Assembly: GCA_002698995.1 (NCBI GenBank) | Contig: PAAX01000007.1 | Location: 1-64,000, forward strand | DNA length: 64,000 nt | Direction: 5' to 3' | Origin: Ignavibacteriota bacterium | GTDB lineage: Bacteria > Bacteroidota > Ignavibacteria > Ignavibacteriales > Melioribacteraceae | In this document: positions 5,989 through 58,208 of the stretch, in pieces | Position numbering within the stretch: the first letter of the stretch is position 1 | How the letters are laid out: each line of letters starts with the position of its first letter | Notes under the pieces: model-generated | The model's database searches: none | The model's input: only the letters and a program-made list of their open reading frames with translations | Told to the model about the DNA's origin: nothing | Position numbers and translations under genes: made by a program

Positions 5989-6915
5989 TTATGTAATTAC
6001 CAGTTCCTTAATTTTATCTCTTATCGACTCAATCTCGTCGGATAGTGAATTACTTTCCAATGTTCCAAACTTCTTCAACTGATTTTTTCTGAAAGCTAAA
6101 GTAGTAGAAAGAGTAATAAGTTTATTTCTCTTTTTCTCATCTATCCATCCTTTTCTAAATCTTTTGTTTGATGAAATAAAATCAATATAATTTGCTAAAT
6201 ATAATTCATCAAAAAGTTCTTCTCTTATTAATTTTAATTCCGAATTTATAAATGATTTATAAACTCTCCAAAAAATTATAATGCAAATAACTATAAATAT
6301 TATTCCATATAAAAATGTGAAATCAAAGCTGACTAAAAAATTCCAAGCTGAATGAATTAGCATTGGAAAAATTAAAAATCCGGTAATAAATATGCTTTTA
6401 AAATAACTCCGCTGAAACTTAAAAATACCAAACACACCACCGATTATTCCAGTACAAATTGCATGTACCAAAGCAGAAGTTGCAGTTCTTAAAATTACTG
6501 TGTATAACCAAATTGTAGAATTATCTGCTGCACCGGAAAAGTATAAAAAGTTTTCTGTCATACCAAAACCCAGACCAACAGCGGCTCCGTAAAGCATTCC
6601 ATCTGTTACATTATCAAACTTAGCACTTCGGTATGTAACAAAAAGTATTAAAGCTTTTGCAATTTCTTCCACAATTGGAGCAACAATAACTGCTCCGGAT
6701 AAATCCAGAAGACTTTCTGAAAGTATAAATGAAAAGAACCAAAGAAAAATTGAACTACCTATAATTGATAAAATTATAGCGCCAACTGCTCCCCATAAAA
6801 AATGAATGATAAGAAATGAAAATGGTTCTCTTTCATATTTATCCTGCCGCCATAAAATTAGCAGATAAATAGTCATTGGAATAATAGCAGCATAAAAGGA
6901 ATTTAACATTGACAT
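5989..6915 (-). CDS. PrsW-family intramembrane metalloprotease
   Basis: A 308-residue membrane protein with about seven or eight helices in the first 220 residues and a soluble C-terminal tail. PrsW-family hallmarks are visible: VEEIAKA (82-88), GMTENFLYF (118-126) and an ALVHAICTGIIGG helix with H151. The two glutamates and the histidine are the expected metal-binding and catalytic residues. B. subtilis PrsW cleaves the anti-sigma factor RsiW; in this lineage the substrate is unknown. It is the first gene of a minus-strand operon with nadD, meaB and a carboxyltransferase, a pairing with no obvious functional logic. An alternative start at the second ATG (M3) is possible. Confidence 0.85.
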   Translation of the reverse strand: MSMLNSFYAAIIPMTIYLLILWRQDKYEREPFSFLIIHFLWGAVGAIILSIIGSSIFLWFFSFILSESLLDLSGAVIVAPIVEEIAKALILFVTYRSAKFDNVTDGMLYGAAVGLGFGMTENFLYFSGAADNSTIWLYTVILRTATSALVHAICTGIIGGVFGIFKFQRSYFKSIFITGFLIFPMLIHSAWNFLVSFDFTFLYGIIFIVICIIIFWRVYKSFINSELKLIREELFDELYLANYIDFISSNKRFRKGWIDEKKRNKLITLSTTLAFRKNQLKKFGTLESNSLSDEIESIRDKIKELVIT

Positions 6916-7056
6916 AATTATTTATTAATAGTGAATTGATTTGCCAATTTAATTCTTTTTAGTTTTAAAAACATTTGATATTTGATGAATGATAAATTAA
7001 AGAATATTATAACTCAGATTTGATTTGCCTCGGTAATTTTGAATTCATAATTATAA

Positions 7057-7101
7057 ATTGTCCATTATACATTGTACATTTTATATTATACATTGTGCAT
7101 T
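7057..7101. repeat. Short AT-rich near-tandem repeat
   Basis: In the 234-base gap between the divergent prsW-like and aroC genes, variants of ATTGTNCATT / TATACATTGTNCATT occur head-to-tail (7057-7066, 7067-7080, 7087-7101). The rest of the gap (6916-7056, 7102-7149) shows nothing I can assign. Confidence 0.5.
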
Positions 7102-7149
7102 AAGTGTTACCATTATATATTTACACTTTCGTTTATTAGGGAAAAATTA

Positions 7150-8361
7150 ATGATCAGATTTCTTACTGCTGGAGAATCTCACGGTAAAGGTTTAACGGTT
7201 ATTGTTGAAGGTTTTCCATCTAACATAAAAATAGAAAATGAATATATAAATTATCATTTAAGTCGCAGACAGATGGGATATGGACGCGGCGGTAGAATGA
7301 AAATTGAAACTGATGCTGCTGAAATTAACGGTGGAATCCGGTTTCAAAAAACTCTAGGTTCACCAATTTCTATGTTTATTCAGAATCGTGACTGGGTAAA
7401 CTGGGAAGAAAAAATGACCGAACATAAGCCTAAAGATAAAACTGAAAAAATTACTATTCCTCGTCCCGGACACGCAGATTTAGTAGGTATTTCAAAATAT
7501 AATTTTAGTGATATAAGAAATTCGATTGAAAGATCGAGTGCCAGAGAAACTGCTGCTAGAGTTGCGGCATGTTCAATTGCCAGAAGCTTTTTAGATAACT
7601 TCGGAATTAAAGTCGGTAGTTTTGTTGAAAATATCGGTGGTATTTATCCAAAGAAAAATTTTGCGGATGAATTATTTCTGAATAATGTTGAAGATGATCT
7701 TGATGCTTGGGAAATTGCTAAGCAGGCTGATGAAAGCTCAGTTAGAGTTCTGGATAAGGATCAAGAGACAAAAATTATAAACAAAATTAAAAAAGCTAAA
7801 AAGCAAGGGGATACTCTAGGCGGAACTATGATAGCTTTTGCCACCAGTGTTCCGTTGGGATTGGGAAGTTTTATTCATTACGATACAAAACTTGATGCTG
7901 CAATTGCTCATTCAATGATGTCAATTAATGCTGTTAAGGGTGTTGAAATTGGAACAGGATTTCATTCAGCAAATATTTTTGGTTCAGAATCTCATGATGA
8001 AATAGTTTATGAGAATAATAACTTCTCAAGAAAAACAAATAGAGCAGGGGGAATTGAAGGAGGAATTTCTACAGGGCTGCCGATTATTGTAAGAGTTGCC
8101 ATGAAACCAATTGCAACTTTAATGTCGCCGATTGAAACCGTTGATTTATCTTCATTTAAATCCATTCAAGCTAGAAGAGAAAGAAGTGATTTTGTGGCTG
8201 TTCCAGCATGTGCTGTAATTGCTGAATCAATGCTGGCTTGGACTTTGGCGGATTTCTTCCTAAAGAAATTTGGCGGCGATTCTTTAGAAGAGACGATTGA
8301 TAATTATAAGACTTATACAAAAAAATTAAACAACAGAATTAAAAAGAATTTTAAGAAGTGA
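7150..8361 (+). CDS. aroC: Chorismate synthase
   Basis: A 403-residue flavoenzyme making chorismate from EPSP, the last step of the shikimate pathway. The N-terminus MIRFLTAGESHG with SHG at 10-12 is the family signature; RRQMGYGRGGRM (about 41-52), RAGGIEGGIS and the C-terminal QARRERSDFVAVPA segment follow. I chose the ATG at 7150 because the family starts immediately before this motif; the frame is open upstream for 26 more codons without family similarity. An AGGGAAAA stretch lies upstream. It leads a tight operon with the hydrolase (1-base gap), ABC genes and a carboxyltransferase. Confidence 0.96.
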   Translation: MIRFLTAGESHGKGLTVIVEGFPSNIKIENEYINYHLSRRQMGYGRGGRMKIETDAAEINGGIRFQKTLGSPISMFIQNRDWVNWEEKMTEHKPKDKTEKITIPRPGHADLVGISKYNFSDIRNSIERSSARETAARVAACSIARSFLDNFGIKVGSFVENIGGIYPKKNFADELFLNNVEDDLDAWEIAKQADESSVRVLDKDQETKIINKIKKAKKQGDTLGGTMIAFATSVPLGLGSFIHYDTKLDAAIAHSMMSINAVKGVEIGTGFHSANIFGSESHDEIVYENNNFSRKTNRAGGIEGGISTGLPIIVRVAMKPIATLMSPIETVDLSSFKSIQARRERSDFVAVPACAVIAESMLAWTLADFFLKKFGGDSLEETIDNYKTYTKKLNNRIKKNFKK

Positions 8362-8362
8362 T

Positions 8363-9004
8363 ATGCTAAAAATTAAGAGATTCGTTTTCAGTTCTTTTAT
8401 GGAAAACTCTTATGTTGTTTTTGATGATCAATCAAAAGAGGCTGCATGTATTGATCCTGGTTGTTTAACAACTTTTGAAGAAAATGAATTGAAAAATTTT
8501 ATTGAAGAAAATTCACTTCAGCTTAAGTACCTCATAAATACTCACTGCCATTTAGATCATATTTTTGGAAATGCATTTGTTACAGATTATTTTGATGTAA
8601 AGTTCTACGCACCGGAAAAAGATATGTTTCTGCTGGAAGAAATGCCAAACATAGCAGCTAAATATGGCTGTTCCGTAAAATCATCTCCAAAACCGGATGT
8701 TTATATCACTGAAGATATTGAACTGAAAATTGGTGAAATAAAAATTAAATTTCTTTTTACACCGGGTCATACACCTGGTGAATATTGTCTTGTTTTTCAT
8801 TCTCAAAAAGTTTTATTTAGTGGCGATGTGTTATTTCTGGAAAGCATTGGAAGAACAGATTTGCCAGGCGGAGATTTTAATACTTTGATTAATTCTATTC
8901 ATACCAAATTATTTACTTTGGATGATGATTTTGTTGTTTTTCCCGGGCATGGTGACTCAACTTCAATCGGTTATGAAAAGAAAAATAATCCATTTTTATC
9001 ATGA
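8363..9004 (+). CDS. MBL-fold (glyoxalase II-like) metal-dependent hydrolase
   Basis: A 213-residue cytoplasmic metallo-beta-lactamase-fold enzyme. The THCHLDH motif (60-66) gives the HxHxDH dinuclear metal site; FTPGHTPGE, FSGDVLF and a late PGHGDST supply the remaining ligands. The compact size resembles the small hydroxyacylglutathione-hydrolase-like or YcbL group that is widespread in bacteria. The substrate is not known. The gene follows aroC by one base and overlaps the next gene by 4 bases (ATGA). Confidence 0.88.
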   Translation: MLKIKRFVFSSFMENSYVVFDDQSKEAACIDPGCLTTFEENELKNFIEENSLQLKYLINTHCHLDHIFGNAFVTDYFDVKFYAPEKDMFLLEEMPNIAAKYGCSVKSSPKPDVYITEDIELKIGEIKIKFLFTPGHTPGEYCLVFHSQKVLFSGDVLFLESIGRTDLPGGDFNTLINSIHTKLFTLDDDFVVFPGHGDSTSIGYEKKNNPFLS

Positions 9005-9750
9005 AGGAGTTTAAAATCGAAAAGAAAAAAAATATCTTTTTAATTTATTTCTCATTTCTACTTTTGTATATAATTCTTGGTGAGCTTACACCAATTTTAA
9101 ACTTTTTACCTAAACCTCAAATTTTACTCGATTCTTTTTTTTCTCTTTGGACTGATTATAATTTATTAGCAGAACTTGGCATAACAACTTTCACTGTTTA
9201 TGTGGGAATCTTTTTAGGAGTTTTAATATTAGAAATTACTTCGGGAGTTCTTGTCAAATTTTTAAGCAGTAATAAATATTCTCTTGAGCTGTTTAAGTTT
9301 CTAAAGTATTTCCCGGCGTTTTTCTTTGCAATACTTTTTTCTTTCTGGTTTCCGGTTTCTATTATAGCTCAATTAGTTTTTGTTGTTCTTGCCTTTGTTT
9401 CTATTATGTTTGTCCCAATTCAAAATGCATTAAAAAATGTAAATGAAAGTTATGTTGATTCTGCATTAAGTTACAAGGTAAGTGAGTCCAAGCTTTCAAA
9501 AATAATTTGGAAAGATTCTCAACCAAAAATTTATTCCAATCTTAATAGAATTCATTATTACGTTTGGACTTTAGTTATGATCTTCGAATATATCGGTACT
9601 TTTAATGGAGTTGGATCAGTTTATTATAATGCGCATAATTACAATGATTATGCTGCCTTTTTTAGTCTTGCAGTTTTAATCGCATTCCTAATTTGGATAG
9701 GAGATTCATTAATAATTCTAATTAAGAATAAGTTAATCGATTGGGAGTAA
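9001..9750 (+). CDS. ABC transporter permease, SsuC/TauC-like
   Basis: A 249-residue membrane protein with about six helices in the arrangement of binding-protein-dependent permeases of the nitrate/sulfonate/taurine group. A degenerate EAA loop is visible (NESYVDSALSYKVSESKLS), but the usual LGA glycine is replaced. It overlaps the upstream hydrolase gene (ATGA at 9001) and is followed 3 bases later by the ATPase gene. No substrate-binding protein gene is nearby, so the cargo cannot be stated. The degenerate coupling loop matches the degenerate partner ATPase. Confidence 0.75.
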   Translation: MKEFKIEKKKNIFLIYFSFLLLYIILGELTPILNFLPKPQILLDSFFSLWTDYNLLAELGITTFTVYVGIFLGVLILEITSGVLVKFLSSNKYSLELFKFLKYFPAFFFAILFSFWFPVSIIAQLVFVVLAFVSIMFVPIQNALKNVNESYVDSALSYKVSESKLSKIIWKDSQPKIYSNLNRIHYYVWTLVMIFEYIGTFNGVGSVYYNAHNYNDYAAFFSLAVLIAFLIWIGDSLIILIKNKLIDWE

Positions 9751-9753
9751 GTT

Positions 9754-10500
9754 TTGAGTAATTCTACAATTAAACTAAATAAATTGGGTAAAAACTATTT
9801 CGATAAAATTGGAAATAAATTAGAAGTATTAAAAAATGTAAGCGCGGAAATTTATCCTAATAAAATTACAGCTTTTCTTGCTCCTCAAGGTTCAGGTAAA
9901 TCATCATTGTTAAAAATAATTGCCGGAATTGAAACTCATTCAAATGGTGATTTAATTTGTAATTCAAAAGTTGTTTACATTCCTAGTGAACCTTCTTCTT
10001 TTCCTTGGTTAACAGTTAAAGAAAATATTCTTGATGAAAATAATATTTCAAATGAAGAATTAACTTCTATAATAAAACTTGTTGGATTAAAAGGTTACGA
10101 AGATCATAAACCAGACAACAGAAGTATTGGTTTTAGATTTAGAATTTCATTGGCAAAAGCAATTGCATATAAAGCCGATTTTATAATTCTGGATGAAGTT
10201 TTCAGTTTAATGAGTTCTGAATCCAAAGTTGAACTATATGAACTGATAAAAAAATTAAGCAAAGAAGGATTTTCATTTATAATAGGAACGAGCAACATTA
10301 CCGAAGCTTTATATTTAGCATCAGAGATTTATTTATTAAGTGCTAAACCAGGAGAAATAATTAGCAAGATTGATAATAAAGAATCAGAAAATTATACATT
10401 GCATTCAATTGCAGAAGAAAAATTTATATCAAAAAGAAATAATATTGAAAATATTTTTAAGAAGGAATATTCACAAGTATTTGCAAAACTCACTATCTAA
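9754..10500 (+). CDS. Degenerate ABC transporter ATP-binding protein
   Basis: A 248-residue nucleotide-binding domain of the SsuB/TauB type, starting at TTG 9754 with GGGAG (9743-9747) upstream. Walker A is APQGSGKS (43-50) and Walker B is FIILDE (143-148), both usable. Other conserved elements are changed: the Q-loop glutamine is serine (IPSEP, 76-80), the signature LSGG reads RSIG (123-126), the D-loop SALD reads SLMS (151-154), and the H-loop histidine is serine (GTSNITEA, 178-185). ATP may be bound but hydrolysis is doubtful. The permease partner directly precedes it. It could be a half-active subunit, a regulatory form or a decaying gene, although the frame is intact. Confidence 0.78.
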   Translation: MSNSTIKLNKLGKNYFDKIGNKLEVLKNVSAEIYPNKITAFLAPQGSGKSSLLKIIAGIETHSNGDLICNSKVVYIPSEPSSFPWLTVKENILDENNISNEELTSIIKLVGLKGYEDHKPDNRSIGFRFRISLAKAIAYKADFIILDEVFSLMSSESKVELYELIKKLSKEGFSFIIGTSNITEALYLASEIYLLSAKPGEIISKIDNKESENYTLHSIAEEKFISKRNNIENIFKKEYSQVFAKLTI

Positions 10501-51155: not shown

Positions 51156-51998
51156 ATGAAAAAAGCAATTTTACTTCTAGTTTTAGCGGTAAGCATTAAA
51201 GCGCAATGGAATTCTGAATGGAATTCATCTTCAATTGATTATAATACTTTATCCGGCTGGATTTCCTTCAAGCAGACTTCAACTTCAATTTGGGAAAAAG
51301 CATTCTATACTTTAAATGAAACTTCATTTAATATTATGGATAATGTTTATCCAACAGCAGTTAAATATTCTTATAATTTTACTCAAGAAGAAATTACTGC
51401 AAATTATCAAATCTATTCTTTAGGGATAGATTTGACAGGTGATGATATAACTGAGTTTTATGTTTTAGCATATCATGAAAATTCCGATAATTACAGGCAG
51501 TCCTTCAAAATATTAGATATTACAAACAACAATGTAATTTTGGAAAAGAACAATTCATCATTCTATTATTCTTATCCAGTTTTATGGGATTTAGACAATG
51601 ACGGAGTTTTAGAGTGTTCGTTTATTGAATATGATTATCCAAACTATTCTTCTTATCGATATAATGTTTTAAATACCGGAATAATTACAGCAATAACTAG
51701 CAAACCGGAAAGCGTAAATAAAGGATTTAGGCTGAATAATAACTATCCGAATCCTTTTAATCCATCAACAATTATTGATTATGAAGTTCCTTCACCTTCA
51801 CAAATAAAAATTGAAGTATTTGATATAACCGGATCAAAAATCAGAACATTGATTCAAGATTTTCATCAAGCCGGCAATTATAAAGTTGAGTGGAACGGCA
51901 CTGACGAGTATGGAAATATAGTTTCTTCTGGAGCATATTTTTATAAAATGAGCAATGAAAAATTTTCTGATGTTAAGAAAATGATATTCCTAAAGTAG
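51156..51998 (+). CDS. Small secreted protein with T9SS sorting domain, first gene of the PqqD/ATP-grasp cluster
   Basis: A 280-residue exported protein from ATG 51156; the frame extends 12 codons upstream but the signal peptide starts here (MKKAILLLVLAVSIKAQ). The mature part begins with NSEWNSSSIDYNTLSGW and is aromatic- and asparagine-rich, with a LDNDGVLECSFIEYD calcium-like loop. The last 85 residues are a T9SS sorting domain (NNYPNPFNPSTIIDYEVP to KKMIFLK). The PqqD gene follows after 8 bases, so it appears to belong to that operon. Whether it is a substrate of the enzymes downstream is open. Confidence 0.8.
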   Translation: MKKAILLLVLAVSIKAQWNSEWNSSSIDYNTLSGWISFKQTSTSIWEKAFYTLNETSFNIMDNVYPTAVKYSYNFTQEEITANYQIYSLGIDLTGDDITEFYVLAYHENSDNYRQSFKILDITNNNVILEKNNSSFYYSYPVLWDLDNDGVLECSFIEYDYPNYSSYRYNVLNTGIITAITSKPESVNKGFRLNNNYPNPFNPSTIIDYEVPSPSQIKIEVFDITGSKIRTLIQDFHQAGNYKVEWNGTDEYGNIVSSGAYFYKMSNEKFSDVKKMIFLK

Positions 51999-52006
51999 GG
52001 GGTAAA

Positions 52007-52261
52007 ATGTCTAACTATAAAGTATTCGATAATCTTGCAGTGAGTGAAAGCGGATTTTTATTTAGTCCTTCAACTGGAGAATCTTTCACACTAAATCCAA
52101 TTGCAAATCAAATTCTTCACTTGCTAAAACAAGGTGAAACCATTAATCAGATCAAAGAAAAAATTCTAAGTGAATATGATATTGATGAATCCTCATTAGA
52201 AAAGGATTTGGATGATTTCATAAATCAATTAATTAATTACAAAATTGTAGAAGAAAAATGA
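52007..52261 (+). CDS. PqqD-like protein
   Basis: An 84-residue protein of the PqqD family: an N-terminal FDNLAVSESGFLFSPSTGESFTLN strand pair, then IANQILHLLKQGETINQIKEKIL and an acidic helix ending YKIVEEK. In PQQ and RiPP systems PqqD domains bind a leader peptide (RRE). No PQQ gene or radical SAM enzyme is nearby. It has a strong AGGGGG site and overlaps the ATP-grasp gene by 4 bases. In this setting it may deliver a peptide or protein to the ligase next door, which is inference. Confidence 0.86.
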   Translation: MSNYKVFDNLAVSESGFLFSPSTGESFTLNPIANQILHLLKQGETINQIKEKILSEYDIDESSLEKDLDDFINQLINYKIVEEK

Positions 52262-53301
52262 ACATAGCTATAACAGGATTAAACAATGTTGATAGTCCGG
52301 GTCCCGGGGTTCCGGTAATTAGAGGAATAAGAGAATCAAAAGAATTTACCGGGAAGATTATAGGATTAATTTATGATTCGTTAGAACCCGGAGCTTACAT
52401 GAAAGATGTAAGTGATATAAATTACCTAATTCCTTATCCTTCAGCCGGTTTGGACAATTTACTGGAAAGATTGAAATTTATTAATGATAAAGAAAAAATT
52501 GATGTAATTATTCCCACTTTAGATTCAGAACTTTATGGTTTTGCAAAACTCTCCTCTAAACTAGAAGAGATGGGAATTAAAACTTTCCTTCCCACTTTTG
52601 ATCAGTTAAACTTTAGAGCAAAAGATAAACTTTTCGATTTTGCTGTAAAGCATAATTTCAAAGTTCCGAAAAACTTATTAGCAACATCTATAAGTGATTT
52701 ATATAAATTATCCGATGAAATAACATTTCCTACAGTAATTAAAGGAATTTTTTATGATGCTTATATAGCTCATAATTTTGAAGAAGCAGTAGGAGCTTTT
52801 CATAAAATATCTTCTAAATGGGGACTTCCAATAATTATTCAAGAATTTGTAAAGGGACAAGAATATAATGTTGCTGCTTTAGGAGATGGTAACGGCGATA
52901 CTGTTGGTGCTGTGGCAATGAAGAAGTTGTACATTACAGATAAAGGTAAAGCCTGGGCAGGAATTACAATTAATGATCCCATTCTAATTAAGCTGTCAGA
53001 TGATATAATAAAAGCACTAAACTGGAAAAGCGGCTGTGAACTTGAATTTGTAAAAGATGAAAAATCAAACGAATATTATCTTTTGGAAATTAATCCCAGA
53101 TTTCCTGCTTGGGTATATTTAGCTGTTGCAGCAGGGCAAAATCTTCCGGCAGCTTTATTAAATCTTGCAATTAGTAAAGATCAGCAGAAGTTTACTTCTT
53201 ATGAAATTGGTAAAATTTTTATAAGGTACTCTTGGGACTTAATAACAGATATCAGAAAATTAGAAGAAATTACTGTTAAAGGAGAATTGATTAATGGATA
53301 A
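52258..53301 (+). CDS. ATP-grasp ligase
   Basis: A 347-residue ATP-grasp enzyme that likely forms an amide or thioester-type bond through an acyl phosphate. The N-terminal domain (NIAITGLNNVDSPGPGVPVIRGI) resembles a preATP-grasp fold. FPTVIKGIFYDAY carries the ATP-binding lysine, EFVKGQEYNVAALGD is the central strand, and EYYLLEINPRFPAW has the Mg-binding glutamate and asparagine. Carboxylate and amine substrates are unknown. It overlaps PqqD upstream by 4 and the PLP enzyme downstream by 8 bases, indicating translational coupling. Confidence 0.86.
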   Translation: MNIAITGLNNVDSPGPGVPVIRGIRESKEFTGKIIGLIYDSLEPGAYMKDVSDINYLIPYPSAGLDNLLERLKFINDKEKIDVIIPTLDSELYGFAKLSSKLEEMGIKTFLPTFDQLNFRAKDKLFDFAVKHNFKVPKNLLATSISDLYKLSDEITFPTVIKGIFYDAYIAHNFEEAVGAFHKISSKWGLPIIIQEFVKGQEYNVAALGDGNGDTVGAVAMKKLYITDKGKAWAGITINDPILIKLSDDIIKALNWKSGCELEFVKDEKSNEYYLLEINPRFPAWVYLAVAAGQNLPAALLNLAISKDQQKFTSYEIGKIFIRYSWDLITDIRKLEEITVKGELING

Positions 53302-54652
53302 GAAAATTTATGAAAGACCGGTAATAATTAAACAGCAGATGGGTTTTATGAATAAGTTCGGAAGCGCTCCAGCAAATCAGCCTTTAACTCATATTGATAA
53401 TGTTTCAGTTGTAGAAATGGCTGAAAAATACGGCTCACCTCTTTTTGTTTTTTCAGAAAAGAAGATTAGACAGAATTATAGAAATCTGAATAGAATATTT
53501 AAAACCCGTTATCCAAAAGTACAGTTTGCCTGGTCTTACAAAACAAATTATTTAAATGCAGTTTGTTCTTTGTTTCATCAAGAGGGAGCGTGGGCAGAAG
53601 TTGTATCTGAATTTGAGTATGAAAGAGCCAGAAAACTTGGTGTTAAAGGGGAAAACATAATTTTTAACGGACCGGATAAAACGATTGAAGGAATTAAAAA
53701 AGCAATTGAAGAAAAAGCAAAAATTCACATAGATCATTTTGATGAACTTTATGACATAATTAATATTACTGAAAAATATAACCTCAAAGCAGATGTTGGT
53801 ATTAGAGTAAATATGGATACAGGAATTTATCCTAAATGGGACAGGTTCGGATTTAATTATGAAAATGGTGAAGCTGTTCAAGCCTTAAAGCGAATTATAT
53901 CAAATGAGAGATTGAATTTAGTTGGACTTCATACTCATATCGGAACTTATATTATGAGTACTGAACCTTATAAAATTGCGGCTCAGAAATTAGTTGTGTT
54001 GGCAAACATGCTTATTGATCAATATGATATAAAATTGGATTATATCGATTTGGGAGGTGGTTTGCCGAGTCACAATACCTTAAAGGGACAATATCTTGAA
54101 GCTGAGCAATTGCTTCCTACATTAGAACAGTATGCAGATGCAATTACATCACCTTTGTATGATCTAAATTTAAGTCCCTCTGAGTTTCCAACTCTCTTTT
54201 TAGAAAATGGAAGAGTGTTAATTGATGATGCCGGATTTTTAGTTAGTAAAGTTCTTGCAAATAAAAGATTATCCGATGGAAGAAGATCAACAGTTATAGA
54301 TGCCGGAGTTAACTTATTATTTACAAGTTTTTGGTTTAAGCATAAGGTTCGTCCAGCACAAGTAAGTTCAACATATACAGAGAGCGCAACTTTATATGGT
54401 CCCTTATGCATGAATATAGATATAATTAGAGATGATGTTGTCCTTCCCACATTAAAAAAAGGGGAATATCTTGTGATAATGTATGTTGGCGCATATAGTG
54501 TTACTCAATGGATGCAGTTCATTACTCTTCGTCCAAATATTGTTATGATAACCGAAGAAGGAAAAATTGAACAATTAAGAAAATCAGAAAATCTAGATTA
54601 CATTATGGAGCAGGAAATTCTTCCCGAGAAACTAAAAGAATTTTCGATTTAA
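53294..54652 (+). CDS. PLP-dependent decarboxylase of the LysA/alanine-racemase fold
   Basis: A 452-residue fold-type III PLP enzyme, related to diaminopimelate, ornithine and arginine decarboxylases. The cofactor lysine is K83 in AWSYKTNYL. GLHTHIGTY, YIDLGGGLPS and LENGR bind phosphate and substrate. The cysteine C372 in GPLCMNID is present, as in active decarboxylases. The N-terminal 40 residues (ERPVIIKQQMGFMNKFGS) are additional to LysA. Its place between an ATP-grasp ligase and a transporter/peptidase makes a role in ordinary lysine synthesis unlikely; a decarboxylated or carboxy-norspermidine-like product is possible. Confidence 0.84.
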   Translation: MDKKIYERPVIIKQQMGFMNKFGSAPANQPLTHIDNVSVVEMAEKYGSPLFVFSEKKIRQNYRNLNRIFKTRYPKVQFAWSYKTNYLNAVCSLFHQEGAWAEVVSEFEYERARKLGVKGENIIFNGPDKTIEGIKKAIEEKAKIHIDHFDELYDIINITEKYNLKADVGIRVNMDTGIYPKWDRFGFNYENGEAVQALKRIISNERLNLVGLHTHIGTYIMSTEPYKIAAQKLVVLANMLIDQYDIKLDYIDLGGGLPSHNTLKGQYLEAEQLLPTLEQYADAITSPLYDLNLSPSEFPTLFLENGRVLIDDAGFLVSKVLANKRLSDGRRSTVIDAGVNLLFTSFWFKHKVRPAQVSSTYTESATLYGPLCMNIDIIRDDVVLPTLKKGEYLVIMYVGAYSVTQWMQFITLRPNIVMITEEGKIEQLRKSENLDYIMEQEILPEKLKEFSI

Positions 54653-54655
54653 GAA

Positions 54656-56791
54656 ATGAAATTAATCATTGAATCAATATTTTATAGTTATTCACAAATC
54701 TTTTTCTCAAATAGAAAATGGTTTGGAGTTGTTTTGTTACTAAGTTCAATGGTAAATCCGGTTGTTGGATTAATGGGATTTGCCGGGGGATTTATCTCTA
54801 ATCTTGCAGCTATAATTTTAAAATATGATAAAGAAAAAATTAGAAGCGGGTTTTACGGTTTTAACGGGATTTTATTTTCTGCTGCTGCAGCATACTTTTT
54901 TGAACTTACTCCATTTATGATATTAATAATCTTCTTCTTTATAATTTTAGCATTTTTTATCTCATCTGGATTAGAAAACTTACTTGCATCACTTTTTAAT
55001 TTACCCGGATTAAGTCTCCCGTTTATCATAACTCTTTTCATACTCTTTATATTTTTAACCAACTATCATAATTACAGTTTCAATACTTTTTTGGAAAATG
55101 GTTCGTTCGGTTTTGATTTTATACCAACCTACATTCAAACTGCATTAAAGTCAGTTGGATTGATAATTCTGCAGCCAAATATTATTACCGGTGGAATAAT
55201 ACTTACAGCATTACTTTTCTTATCCAGAATTCATTTTATCAATACAATAATTGCTTTAATAGCAAATTATTATTTAATGCAACTACTGTTGCCCGATTCC
55301 GGAAATGATATTTTAATTCTCTCATCTTTTAATGCTGTTGTAACTGCTTATGCTTTGGGAGGATCATTAATTATTCTTTCCAGAAAAACAGTTTTCCTAC
55401 TAATTATTTCAAATATTATGGTAATTATTTTTACCGGATTTTTCCTAAAGTTTTTAGTCAATTTTTCTCTTCCGGTTTTAGTTCTTCCTTTTAATGTTGT
55501 TGTTCTATCAATAATTTATAGTCTTAAATTCAGACAAGAGCAGTCTGATTTTGTACTTCTTTATTTTAAACCCGGTTCTCCCGAGGAGAATTTTTACTAT
55601 CATCAAAACAGAAAAAGCAGATTTGAAGAATTCAAATATCTTTTCCCTGAGCTTCCTGTTAATGGAGAATGGAAAATATCTCAAGCTTTTAACGGTGATT
55701 ATACGCATAAAGATGATTGGAAGTATGCTTGGGATTTTATAATTGTTGATAAAGATGATAACCAGTATCAAAATTCGGGAGATTTAAAGGAAGATTACTA
55801 CTGCTATAATATTCCCGTTACTGCTCCTTTGGAAGGGGAAATTGTTAGAGTTATTGATAATGTTCCGGATAATAAAATCGGTGATACAAACCTAAAATAT
55901 AACTGGGGAAACACTATTATAATTAAACATGATAAGGAATTATATTCTTCTTTATCTCATCTAAAAATGGGTACAATTAAAGTTAAAAAAGGGGATCAAA
56001 TTAGAAAAGGACAAGTTTTGGCAAATGTTGGCAACAGCGGGCGTTCTCCTTATCCGCATTTACATTTTCAATTCCAGCTTACAGATAAAGTCGGTGAAAA
56101 AACTTATAAATTTCCTTTCTCTTATTATGTTAGAAATGACAAGAATGAAACAATATTAAAATCTTTTGATTATCCGGACAAAGATGATATTGTAATGAAT
56201 ATTGATACTCACAAAACATTAAAATCGGCTTTTGATTTTCAAATCGGTTATGAGTATAAATTAAAATGGAAATTGAACGGGAAAGAATCTTATGAAAATT
56301 GGAAAGTGAATGTAGATATAAACAATAATATGTATATAGAATCAAATTTAGAATCAAAAGTATATTTATTCCCAAAGGAAAAGGTTTTGTATTTAACTGA
56401 CTTTATCGGAAATAAAAAATCAGCTCTCTATTATTTTTACTTATTAGCATCAAAAGTACCTCTTGGATATAACCAAAACTTAAGATGGAATGATACATTT
56501 CAGATTTCATTAACAATCAACAAATTGATTAGATATTTATCTGAATTTTTTTTAATGATCACTCCTTTATTAAAAACGGAAGGATTATATAATTTTCAGA
56601 AAGATGAAGAAAATAATTTTACGATAAAAGCCGAAATATCCAGTTCCGGCAAAGGAATATTAAATTTCTATAATGATTCTGCTAAAGGAGAATTATTGAT
56701 TTCTAATGAAGGAAAATTAAAAAACCTTAATTATATGTCAGCAAATACAGAATTTAATTCAGAGTTTATTAATAGTGAGGAAAATTTATGA
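54656..56791 (+). CDS. Urea-transporter-like membrane domain fused to M23 metallopeptidase
   Basis: A 711-residue protein in three parts. Residues 1-290 contain ten or so helices of the urea-transporter type (SMVNPVVGLMGFAGGFISNLAA, IITGGIILTALLFLSRIHF). Residues about 330-490 are an M23 peptidase with the ligands near H351 (THKDDWKYAWDF), SLSHLK and PHLHFQF (about 465-471), which cuts peptidoglycan cross-links or peptides. The C-terminal 210 residues are unrecognised and beta-rich. The peptidase side should face the periplasm. Start is 3 bases after the PLP gene stop; the TPR gene overlaps its end by 4 bases. Confidence 0.85.
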   Translation: MKLIIESIFYSYSQIFFSNRKWFGVVLLLSSMVNPVVGLMGFAGGFISNLAAIILKYDKEKIRSGFYGFNGILFSAAAAYFFELTPFMILIIFFFIILAFFISSGLENLLASLFNLPGLSLPFIITLFILFIFLTNYHNYSFNTFLENGSFGFDFIPTYIQTALKSVGLIILQPNIITGGIILTALLFLSRIHFINTIIALIANYYLMQLLLPDSGNDILILSSFNAVVTAYALGGSLIILSRKTVFLLIISNIMVIIFTGFFLKFLVNFSLPVLVLPFNVVVLSIIYSLKFRQEQSDFVLLYFKPGSPEENFYYHQNRKSRFEEFKYLFPELPVNGEWKISQAFNGDYTHKDDWKYAWDFIIVDKDDNQYQNSGDLKEDYYCYNIPVTAPLEGEIVRVIDNVPDNKIGDTNLKYNWGNTIIIKHDKELYSSLSHLKMGTIKVKKGDQIRKGQVLANVGNSGRSPYPHLHFQFQLTDKVGEKTYKFPFSYYVRNDKNETILKSFDYPDKDDIVMNIDTHKTLKSAFDFQIGYEYKLKWKLNGKESYENWKVNVDINNNMYIESNLESKVYLFPKEKVLYLTDFIGNKKSALYYFYLLASKVPLGYNQNLRWNDTFQISLTINKLIRYLSEFFLMITPLLKTEGLYNFQKDEENNFTIKAEISSSGKGILNFYNDSAKGELLISNEGKLKNLNYMSANTEFNSEFINSEENL

Positions 56792-57399
56792 AACATTTAA
56801 TCATTGTTCTGTTTTTCATTAATCTGATTTTTTTAACTGCTCAGAATGATCAGAAAATAATTGCATTTAATAAATCGGTTGATTTTGAAGAAATAGGAAA
56901 TTATAAAGATGCTGTAAAGGAAATAGAAAATATTTATTCGAAATTTTCAAATGATTATCTGGTTAACTTAAGATTAGGCTGGTTGAATTATCTTGATAAA
57001 AAATATGATGAATCTATTAAGTATTATAAAAAAGCTGTTTCAATAAGTAATAATAGTATTGAAGCGCAGCTTGGTATAACATATCCTTTATCTGCAAAAA
57101 ATAATTGGGATGAAATAAAAAATGTATATGCTAATATATTGGATACAGACCCGTTAAATTATACCGCAAGATTAAATCTTGCCCAGATTTACTTAAAAGA
57201 CGGAGATAATCTAAATGCAAAAATAAATTTGGAGAAATTAATTGAACAGTATCCTAGTGACAGTGCTGTTAATTTGTATTTGGGCTGGACTTATTACTAT
57301 TTAGGAAATAAAAGTAAGGCAAATAATTTATTTGCAACTGCATTAATTGCAGACCCAACAAGTTCAAGCGCTAAAGAAGGATGGAATTTAACGAAATGA
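56788..57399 (+). CDS. Secreted TPR protein
   Basis: A 203-residue protein with a signal peptide (LIFLTAQ) and about five tetratricopeptide repeats: YLVNLRLGWLNYLDKKYDESIKYYKKAV, PLNYTARLNLAQIYLKDGD, SAVNLYLGWTYYYLGNKSKANNLF. It should be periplasmic. It overlaps the M23 fusion upstream (ATGA) and the barrel-like gene downstream. TPR followed by a barrel recalls the domain order of YaiO-type outer-membrane proteins, here as two genes. Confidence 0.84.
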   Translation: MKHLIIVLFFINLIFLTAQNDQKIIAFNKSVDFEEIGNYKDAVKEIENIYSKFSNDYLVNLRLGWLNYLDKKYDESIKYYKKAVSISNNSIEAQLGITYPLSAKNNWDEIKNVYANILDTDPLNYTARLNLAQIYLKDGDNLNAKINLEKLIEQYPSDSAVNLYLGWTYYYLGNKSKANNLFATALIADPTSSSAKEGWNLTK

Positions 57400-58208
57400 A
57401 AAAACTGATAAGTTTATTTATAATTATTTCTTTTCCTATTTATGCTCAAGCAATTAATTCAGTAAAGCTGCTTCCCTTTGTAAATATTGGAGATTACAGC
57501 AATAAAACAAACTCAACTTCGTTTTCAGTTTATTCTTCATTAAATCTTTTTTCATATGATTATTTATCTCTTGGATTCGACAAATTGAAAATCAATAACA
57601 AAGAATGGAATTATGATCAATCTCTTTATGTAATAGGATATACAAAAAATATCTATCCGTTTTATATTTCAGCCAATTATGGTTACTTAAATGGTGAGTA
57701 TTCTTATAAACCGTTTTCTTTTAAATATAATGACGACATAAATATTTATAATGCAAAAGCTACATATAACTACAATCTTTTTTTTATAAGCGGTTCATTC
57801 TCATATTTAAATATAAGAGGATTCAAAAATTTGAAGAGTTATCAGTCGGAAGCGATTATAACTTTCCAGCCGAATATTAAATCTTATTTTGGAGCTTCTC
57901 TATTAAATACAAATCAAACAGATAACAGAAATTTAATTGGAGCAGAAGTATTTGGTTCTTATCAATTTATTACCAGTTTAAGATTATCTGCTAATTTATT
58001 TGTTGGAGAAAGAGCTTACTATTTTGATCCAAATACATTTACTATATTTAATCAAGATGACACACAAACCGGAAATTATAAATTACAAATTGACTATCTC
58101 GTTAATAATAATTTTTCTATAACCGGTATATATCAAAAATCTTTATTCAAACCATATTCTATAAATTATTTTTCATTAGGATTAGCAATTCTTATCGAAA
58201 GTAAATAA
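57396..58208 (+). CDS. Outer-membrane beta-barrel-like protein
   Basis: A 270-residue exported protein; I choose ATG 57396, which overlaps the previous stop as ATGA, over the in-frame ATG at 57381. After the signal peptide (SFPIYAQ) the sequence is aromatic-rich with regular two-residue alternation (NSTSFSVYSSLNLFSYDYLSLGF, YPFYISANYGYLNGEYSY, SLRLSANLFVGERAYYF), ending YFSLGLAILIESK. That is the pattern of a 12-14-strand barrel. It ends the PqqD/ATP-grasp cluster and could export or anchor the product. No family is recognised. Confidence 0.6.
   Translation: MKKLISLFIIISFPIYAQAINSVKLLPFVNIGDYSNKTNSTSFSVYSSLNLFSYDYLSLGFDKLKINNKEWNYDQSLYVIGYTKNIYPFYISANYGYLNGEYSYKPFSFKYNDDINIYNAKATYNYNLFFISGSFSYLNIRGFKNLKSYQSEAIITFQPNIKSYFGASLLNTNQTDNRNLIGAEVFGSYQFITSLRLSANLFVGERAYYFDPNTFTIFNQDDTQTGNYKLQIDYLVNNNFSITGIYQKSLFKPYSINYFSLGLAILIESK

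Follow-up and report, generated by a model that had tools for sequence, protein, structure and literature searches.

Lasso-type RiPP recognition elements (RREs; RiPP, ribosomally synthesized and post-translationally modified peptide) read a leader motif of the form [Y/W]xxPx[L/V/I/F/A], and in a related RRE, the LPP element LppB, residue D70 hydrogen-bonds the leader tyrosine, Tyr-16 of LppA (PMC13381572). The decarboxylases of the FigC clade (SbnH, AcsE, MccE and BtrK) are described, in PMC7857480, as acting on amino acids that have already been conjugated distally. Here we analyze a gene cassette that encodes relatives of both: a PqqD-family protein, an ATP-grasp ligase and a pyridoxal phosphate (PLP)-dependent decarboxylase, usually followed by genes for envelope proteins. 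It lies in a stretch of 64,000 nucleotides (hereafter the window; positions 1 to 64,000 of contig PAAX01000007.1, assembly GCA_002698995.1) from the 4.23 Mb genome of an Ignavibacteriota bacterium. Our analysis suggests that the PqqD protein docks not on a precursor peptide but on a short, disordered, leader-like tail at the N-terminus of the decarboxylase.

A conserved three-gene core

The order of the cassette genes is conserved far beyond chance and is not an accidental arrangement. A draw of 247 genomes from the phylum gave 37 that matched the fused urea-transporter (UT)-M23 protein encoded downstream of the decarboxylase, and both parts, UT and M23, were present in 22 of these, counting the window's own genome. 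Of the remaining 21, we retrieved 20 as longer stretches; in all 20, pqqD, the ligase gene and the decarboxylase gene precede the UT-M23 gene, with four of the pqqD genes seen by profile only. We also scanned a genome collection with a profile of the decarboxylase, which matched at least 585 stretches, and kept the best 80 loci, whose titles name Bacteroidota, Ignavibacteriota or Chlorobiota groups. In the resulting set of 101 loci (Bacteroidota/Ignavibacteriota) the three core genes adjoin in 95. Five of the six decarboxylases without an adjoining PqqD start less than 400 bases from a contig end, and the sixth, L082, belongs to a lineage in which the genes are scattered (see below). Gene order is kept beyond close relatives of the window's bacterium, as expected of the coupled gene set that the initial annotation of this DNA had proposed.

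The genes that follow are more variable. About half of the loci (51/101) continue with the UT-M23 gene, then a gene for a barrel-like protein of ~400 residues, then a tetratricopeptide repeat (TPR) gene; the exact order of the window occurs in 20/101, most other loci being cut by contig ends or lacking the last genes.

The decarboxylase is patchily distributed. It was found in 17/241, 1/98, 8/128 and 19/248 genomes of four orders, in 46/294 genomes of the window's class and in 32/393 of a further phylum draw, with genomes shared among the order, class and phylum draws. On the tree, the window decarboxylase falls nearest to rows named Chlorobiota and Melioribacteraceae. A plasmid search for mobile copies returned four records at 26.8–30.2% identity. 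One genome, G120, has two equal-scoring decarboxylase matches (L050/L228) near both ends of its only contig; this may reflect a circular chromosome whose assembly overlaps itself.

A leader-like tail on the decarboxylase

The decarboxylases begin with a conserved pattern, [YF]ERPxI...KFG, which in the window reads Tyr6-Glu-Arg-Pro9-Val-Ile11. In 101/101 decarboxylases, tail column 6 holds Y or F, column 9 holds P and column 11 holds I, L or V; by a looser test, the motif occurs within the first 24 residues of 14 of 1108 other open reading frames (ORFs) of at least 120 amino acids from the same loci. We then enlarged the set and merged identical decarboxylase ends, leaving 159 distinct sequences, 148 of them with a PqqD. 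Pro9 is present in 159/159 of these, and residue 6 is Tyr in 128 and Phe in 31.

In the structural model of the decarboxylase (mean predicted local distance difference test score, pLDDT, 88.8), tail residues 6–25 score below 50, and the two best structural relatives align only from residue 29–30 onward. A segment that is conserved and yet predicted to be disordered appears to behave like a docking motif.

The PqqD protein is the proposed partner. Its best profile match in the PDB is TbiB1 (5v1u, E 7.7e-13), followed by TfuB1 and then by 9x90 and 9x8z, which from their residue numbers we take to be PbaB1 and LppB. Its AlphaFold model best matches the TbiB1-leader complex 5v1v (Z 13.9, 83 residues, root-mean-square deviation 1.7); the second match has Z 13.5 and the third, the TfuB1-leader complex 6jx3, Z 12.2. 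Judged by this model, PqqD has an RRE fold of the lasso-B1 kind. Residues of the cleft that would receive the YxxP motif are largely kept among the 148 PqqDs: N30 in 145, F71 in 133, L75 in 142 and D67 in 117, with residues 67, 71 and 75 on the last modeled helix (61–77). By our own mapping from the profile-search alignments, PqqD residue 67 is the counterpart of LppB D70, the residue that contacts the leader tyrosine. The window's genome also encodes a second PqqD-family protein (L002 1459-1830, G000:C31), flanked by genes for an MFS-like transporter and for a protein with a signal peptide, both recognized by eye.

The tail carries one more conserved residue, Lys21, found in 158/159 distinct sequences and lying within the predicted disordered stretch, and this residue invites another explanation. 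The tail might be leader and core at once, a one-residue RiPP, with PqqD presenting Lys21 to the ligase; the ligase would charge Lys21 through the side-chain carboxylate of an amino acid, the decarboxylase would decarboxylate its own cargo, and the product would be transferred off, so that RiPP leader recognition would stand in place of a BtrI-type acyl carrier protein. If Tyr6 corresponds to LppA Tyr-16, Lys21 falls, by our mapping onto the LppA leader numbering, at position -1, the leader/core junction. Moreover BtrK, of the same clade as FigC and a fold match of the cassette decarboxylase at Z 42.0, acts on carrier-bound glutamate (PMC7857480). One natural sequence, L204 (G994), nevertheless has Gln at position 21, the sole tail of 159 to do so, while keeping the YERP motif and the PqqD Asp67, and the lysine could instead serve only to contact PqqD, the ligase or the second subunit. 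We regard a tail that carries its own substrate as unlikely.

The tail and PqqD covary

Three loci had shown a tail Phe without the PqqD Asp67, and on that basis we fixed, before counting, the prediction that the two positions would vary together. Among the 95 pairs of decarboxylase residue 6 and PqqD residue 67 there were 78 Tyr-Asp, 2 Tyr-Asn, 13 Phe-Tyr, 1 Phe-His and 1 Phe-Phe. The 148 distinct pairs, which do not include the PqqDs of the scattered-gene genomes G367 and G424, gave 117 Tyr-Asp, 2 Tyr-Asn, 20 Phe-Tyr, 7 Phe-Ser, 1 Phe-His and 1 Phe-Phe. A tail Tyr is paired with Asp or Asn in 119/119 cases and a tail Phe with neither in 29/29, with zero exceptions. Over 92 distinct rows, this pair ranks first of 35,392 PqqD-decarboxylase column pairs, both by mutual information (MI) with average product correction (MI-APC) and by normalized MI.

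A parsimony mapping places no change of residue 67 on the branches with a tail Tyr (27.16 units) and 3 on those with a tail Phe (5.85 units). If the rates were equal, the chance that all three changes would fall on Phe branches is about 0.177 cubed, or 0.006; a Poisson figure of 9e-7 for the same comparison is too bold, as it takes three events as an exact rate. Both tail switches coincide with a change at PqqD 67, and in one of them the tail reverts to Tyr while residue 67 becomes Asn.

Two draft assemblies, G367 and G424, carry the decarboxylase, ligase and pqqD genes on three different contigs. Each has a single match for the ligase and for pqqD, and each keeps both the YERPVI tail and PqqD Asp67. 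No cassette partner was seen on the stretches fetched around the ligase genes of either genome or around the decarboxylase gene of G424, and the ORF lists around both pqqD genes show no ligase-sized neighbor at the expected place. The three core proteins therefore seem to belong together even without adjacency, since the scattered genes have been retained with Tyr6 and Asp67. In L082, a record assigned to a genome whose ligase coordinates are those of G367, the decarboxylase gene (6717-8075) follows a dnaA-like gene (recognized by eye).

From the motif, the fold and the covariation, we judge physical docking of PqqD on the decarboxylase tail to be probable.

No precursor peptide stands out beside the cassette

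The initial annotation had supposed that PqqD presents a precursor encoded nearby. Searching for the leader-like motif only, we found it in 25 of 1154 small ORFs near the cassette and in 66 of 2454 far from it, so there is no enrichment and this supposition found no support. Nor did a precursor candidate stand out among recurrent neighbors (ORFs of at least 60 amino acids) beside the cassette. Exact matches to K-x-[YF]-E-x-P-x-I number three across the window's genome, compared with 2 and 2 for the reversed control pattern. Only in the decarboxylase gene does the match lie in frame at a protein start, the other two being antisense to longer ORFs; this genome-wide search covered the exact pattern only and was not a full precursor search.

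These counts bear on a conventional RiPP pathway, in which a precursor with the same leader motif would be encoded elsewhere and the decarboxylase would merely share that motif, for example in order to modify the peptide. ATP-grasp ligases are described as making graspetides, and to our knowledge the known PqqD-family RREs serve peptide precursors. Against this stand the lack of leader-like ORF enrichment beside the cassette and, for the exact pattern in the window's genome, the restriction of the in-frame motif to the decarboxylase gene, and we consider such a pathway improbable.

Several observations weigh against a docking tail and the three-protein core built on it. A precursor may be encoded elsewhere in the genome. 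Raw MI places the 6–67 pair only at rank 3127, which we attribute to raw MI favoring variable columns. The tree requires only 2 Tyr/Phe switches, and a tree-aware sign test gives p 0.5, a test left powerless by so few switches. Clade-driven ligase-decarboxylase pairs reach a normalized score of 0.588, compared with 0.661 for the 6–67 pair, and by plain MI-APC they score higher (0.471 versus 0.389). Some more distant structures, of D-ornithine/lysine decarboxylases, align from model residue 14–18, within the tail; the model comprised a single subunit, with the other half of the dimer left out. The motif glycine lies at +11 from the Tyr, as against +9 in lasso leaders, and six tails submitted alone gave no NCBIfam match. 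Finally, UT-M23 was not detected downstream of the decarboxylase in L100 and L120, where there is room for it, and likewise in L144 and L167; for this reason we take pqqD, ligase and decarboxylase as the core and the envelope genes as usual but not obligatory.

The decarboxylase and ligase suggest a conjugate as substrate

The best PDB match of the decarboxylase by sequence is 7kh2 (FslC/FigC, E 7.7e-62; the first LysA follows at E 8.4e-43), and 7kh2 is also the best match by fold (Z 47.4 over residues 29–435), with LysA close at Z 46.2. Its score against the NCBIfam FslC model is 236.5 bits, against a cut-off of 500. K83, H213, C372 and D376 are invariant in 101/101 decarboxylases; Met373, next to the catalytic Cys372 as in the open pocket of FigC, is found in 101/101 and Thr344, also shared with FigC, in 99/101. 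The LysA residues that hold the distal end of diaminopimelate, the Arg of RPSIY and the Glu of CE(S/T), are absent. The window's genome has a separate LysA gene, L034, with the canonical residues; this rules out the cassette enzyme as the organism's LysA and, in keeping with the initial annotation's reading of the cluster, means that it is not the only one.

The residues by which FigC contacts citrate, H357 and R387 (PMC7857480, section 8), are replaced in the cassette, by Ile375 (58/58) and Gln405 (101/101). Synthesis of a metallophore of the rhizoferrin/staphyloferrin kind, with the ATP-grasp enzyme replacing an NRPS-independent siderophore (NIS) synthetase, would suit a decarboxylase whose nearest characterized relative is FslC/FigC. 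With the citrate contacts replaced and the scanned window proteins including no NIS synthetase, it seems very unlikely. From the habit of the FigC clade together with the changed pocket, we infer that the ligase product is a conjugate whose distal group is uncharged, and that the decarboxylase then trims it. That the conjugate is formed first and decarboxylated afterwards is, in our judgment, slightly the likelier order.

The ligase gene overlaps pqqD, with a median gap of -4 in 95 loci. K122, K162, E277, N279 and R281 are invariant among 21 aligned ligases, and we take K122, K162 and the ExNPR motif to be ATP/Mg residues. Among solved structures, the ligase is closest to carbamoyl-phosphate-synthase domains and to 2pn1, which is named after them. 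We looked in the 101 loci for a PqqD-ligase gene fusion as evidence of contact and found none.

Envelope proteins encoded with the core

The UT domain is a full-length homolog of dvUT (3me1, E 1.1e-50). We assume that the positions of dvUT Glu187 and Thr130, and Q14 of the cassette protein, are urea-binding. Among 88 cassette proteins, the Glu187 position holds Ala in 43, Leu in 18 and Ser in 18, and Glu is not among its six commonest letters; the Thr130 position is Ser in 83/88, and Q14 is kept in 62/88. The changes at the Glu187 and Thr130 positions suggest that something other than urea is likely transported. In the M23 part, the M23-type residues H351, D360, H435, H468 and H470 are present in 88/88; the first spacing is H-x8-D, outside the Pfam match, where H-x3-D is usual. 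The fusion can be split: in L055 (G005), 7944-10198, two separate overlapping genes encode its halves.

These proteins could also work inward, with the barrel, TPR, M23 and UT proteins importing and cutting peptides or small amides of the envelope, which the ligase and decarboxylase would then assimilate. Uptake and catabolism would suit the passive nature of UT channels, the usual role of M23 enzymes in cutting peptidoglycan and the invariance of the M23-type histidines. An ATP-driven ligase and an RRE would better suit synthesis, however, and the core occurs without UT-M23 in four loci and as scattered genes in two genomes, so that a catabolic role is improbable. For the direction of transport, taken on its own, we rate export and import of the product as evenly balanced.

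Genes of the window

The initial annotation had described seven closely packed genes here, and all seven are present (Table 1), separated by +8, -4, -8, +3, -4 and -19 bases. The domains it had named were recovered for the first six; the last protein matches no Pfam or NCBIfam family, and its label as a barrel therefore rests on its look only. Many other loci encode, in the position of this last protein, one of ~400 residues, and some of these larger proteins match TPR models weakly. As had been stated, no radical S-adenosylmethionine enzyme PqqE or other pyrroloquinoline quinone (PQQ) gene adjoins pqqD, none being found among the 9 window proteins scanned.

The first gene encodes a protein with a type IX secretion system (T9SS) sorting signal. 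Apart from generic matches, its Pfam and NCBIfam hits are confined to the C-terminal region. Relatives lie beside the cassette in 27/101 loci, with 21 of these 30 members upstream. We therefore set aside the suggestion that it is the modified substrate or a core part, and keep it as a companion only.

Table 1. Cassette genes and decarboxylase and PqqD features in the window.
Feature	Coordinates	Strand	Remarks
T9SS-sorted surface protein	51156..51998	+	TIGR04183 E 9.5e-9; companion at part of the loci, not core
PqqD-family protein, lasso-B1-type RRE (predicted)	52007..52261	+	PF05402 E 2.6e-14
PqqD Asp67 codon (LppB D70 counterpart)	52205..52207	+	mapped by profile-search alignments
ATP-grasp ligase	52258..53301	+	PF15632 E 2.7e-10
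PLP decarboxylase (fold III, alanine-racemase fold), N-citrylornithine-decarboxylase-like	53294..54652	+	PF02784 E 6.1e-31; PF00278 E 1.7e-14
Decarboxylase N-terminal tail, residues 1-28, leader-like candidate docking motif	53294..53377	+	conserved, predicted disordered
YERPVI, decarboxylase residues 6-11, matching the YxxPx[L/V/I] leader motif	53309..53326	+	
Decarboxylase Lys21 in the NKFG box, 15 residues past Tyr6	53354..53356	+	
Urea-transporter-fold membrane domain and M23 domain, fused	54656..56791	+	PF03253 E 2.5e-48 (165 bits); PF01551 E 2e-15
TPR protein, hydrophobic signal-like N-terminal stretch	56788..57399	+	TPR_2 E 7.7e-16; kept beside the cassette
Barrel-like predicted outer-membrane protein	57381..58208	+	by appearance only; co-conserved

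Discussion

We propose that the core of the cassette may be a three-protein machine in which the ligand of the PqqD RRE is the disordered decarboxylase tail (Tyr6-x-x-Pro9-x-Ile11) rather than a precursor. The RRE would thereby hold the decarboxylase in place, its most likely anchor being the ATP-grasp ligase, encoded by the gene that overlaps pqqD. This ligase would join an amino-acid side chain to a partner through an ATP-driven amide (or ester) bond, and the decarboxylase would then strip the alpha-carboxylate from the conjugate, leaving an amine-ended product that the UT-like domain, M23 domain, TPR protein and barrel-like protein might carry or process in the envelope. Taken whole, a PqqD that tethers the ligase-decarboxylase pair through this tail to make an amine-ended conjugate is a reasonably likely account of the cassette. 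The computations bear directly on the gene set and its conservation, the RRE fold with its pocket residues, the leader motif, the predicted disorder of the tail, the covariation and the pocket signature of the decarboxylase; docking, tethering to the ligase, the sequence of the two reactions, the nature of the product and the direction of transport are what we deduce. The initial annotation had read the cluster as a plan to recognize, ligate, decarboxylate, transport and cut. A conserved set for recognition, ligation, decarboxylation and transport is supported; the nearby precursor and the core role of the T9SS protein found no support.

If this account is right, RREs are more than precursor binders, and the code by which leaders are recognized has found a second use in enzyme recruitment. 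For RRE clusters that lack a precursor, the partner could then be sought through leader motifs at enzyme termini. It would also give a widespread cassette a testable function and point to an amine-ended metabolite.

The initial annotation knew of no described system with this gene set, and we found no description of one in the open-licence literature; part of the neighborhood may have been mentioned earlier in a 2009 survey of amidoligases. Known systems do resemble its parts. With the lasso RREs TbiB1, TfuB1 and PbaB1 and the LPP RRE LppB, the window's PqqD has in common the predicted RRE fold and hydrophobic cleft, and in the alignments TbiB1, TfuB1 and LppB have an Asp matching residue 67; TbiB1 differs in having Asp where the cassette PqqD has Asn30. 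These RREs bind the leader of a small precursor, whereas the candidate ligand here, the tail, belongs to an enzyme of 452 residues, with no adjoining precursor found. The decarboxylase shares its fold and pocket, including the Met beside the catalytic Cys and the Thr of the specificity helix, with the FslC/FigC clade (SbnH, AcsE, BtrK, MccE). Unlike FslC/FigC, it has a leader-like tail without counterpart in the 7kh2 alignment, its citrate residues are replaced, and its partner ligase is an ATP-grasp enzyme instead of an NIS synthetase.

The BtrI/BtrJ/BtrK part of the butirosin pathway, in which BtrJ is the ATP-grasp enzyme, likewise uses a ligase and then a decarboxylase of the same clade on a tethered amino acid, but no acyl carrier protein is found among the window's cassette proteins; in its place are an RRE and a decarboxylase with a tail. 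The UT domain has the dvUT fold over its whole length, and differs from dvUT at the Glu187 and Thr130 positions and in carrying M23. In borosins, a RiPP-type substrate segment is fused to its own modifying enzyme, an N-methyltransferase with a C-terminal core; the fusion of a substrate-like segment to an enzyme is alike, although borosins are not known to use RRE-leader docking in trans. The parts of the cassette are of known kinds; what is new is their arrangement, in which the best candidate ligand for an RRE is an enzyme's tail.

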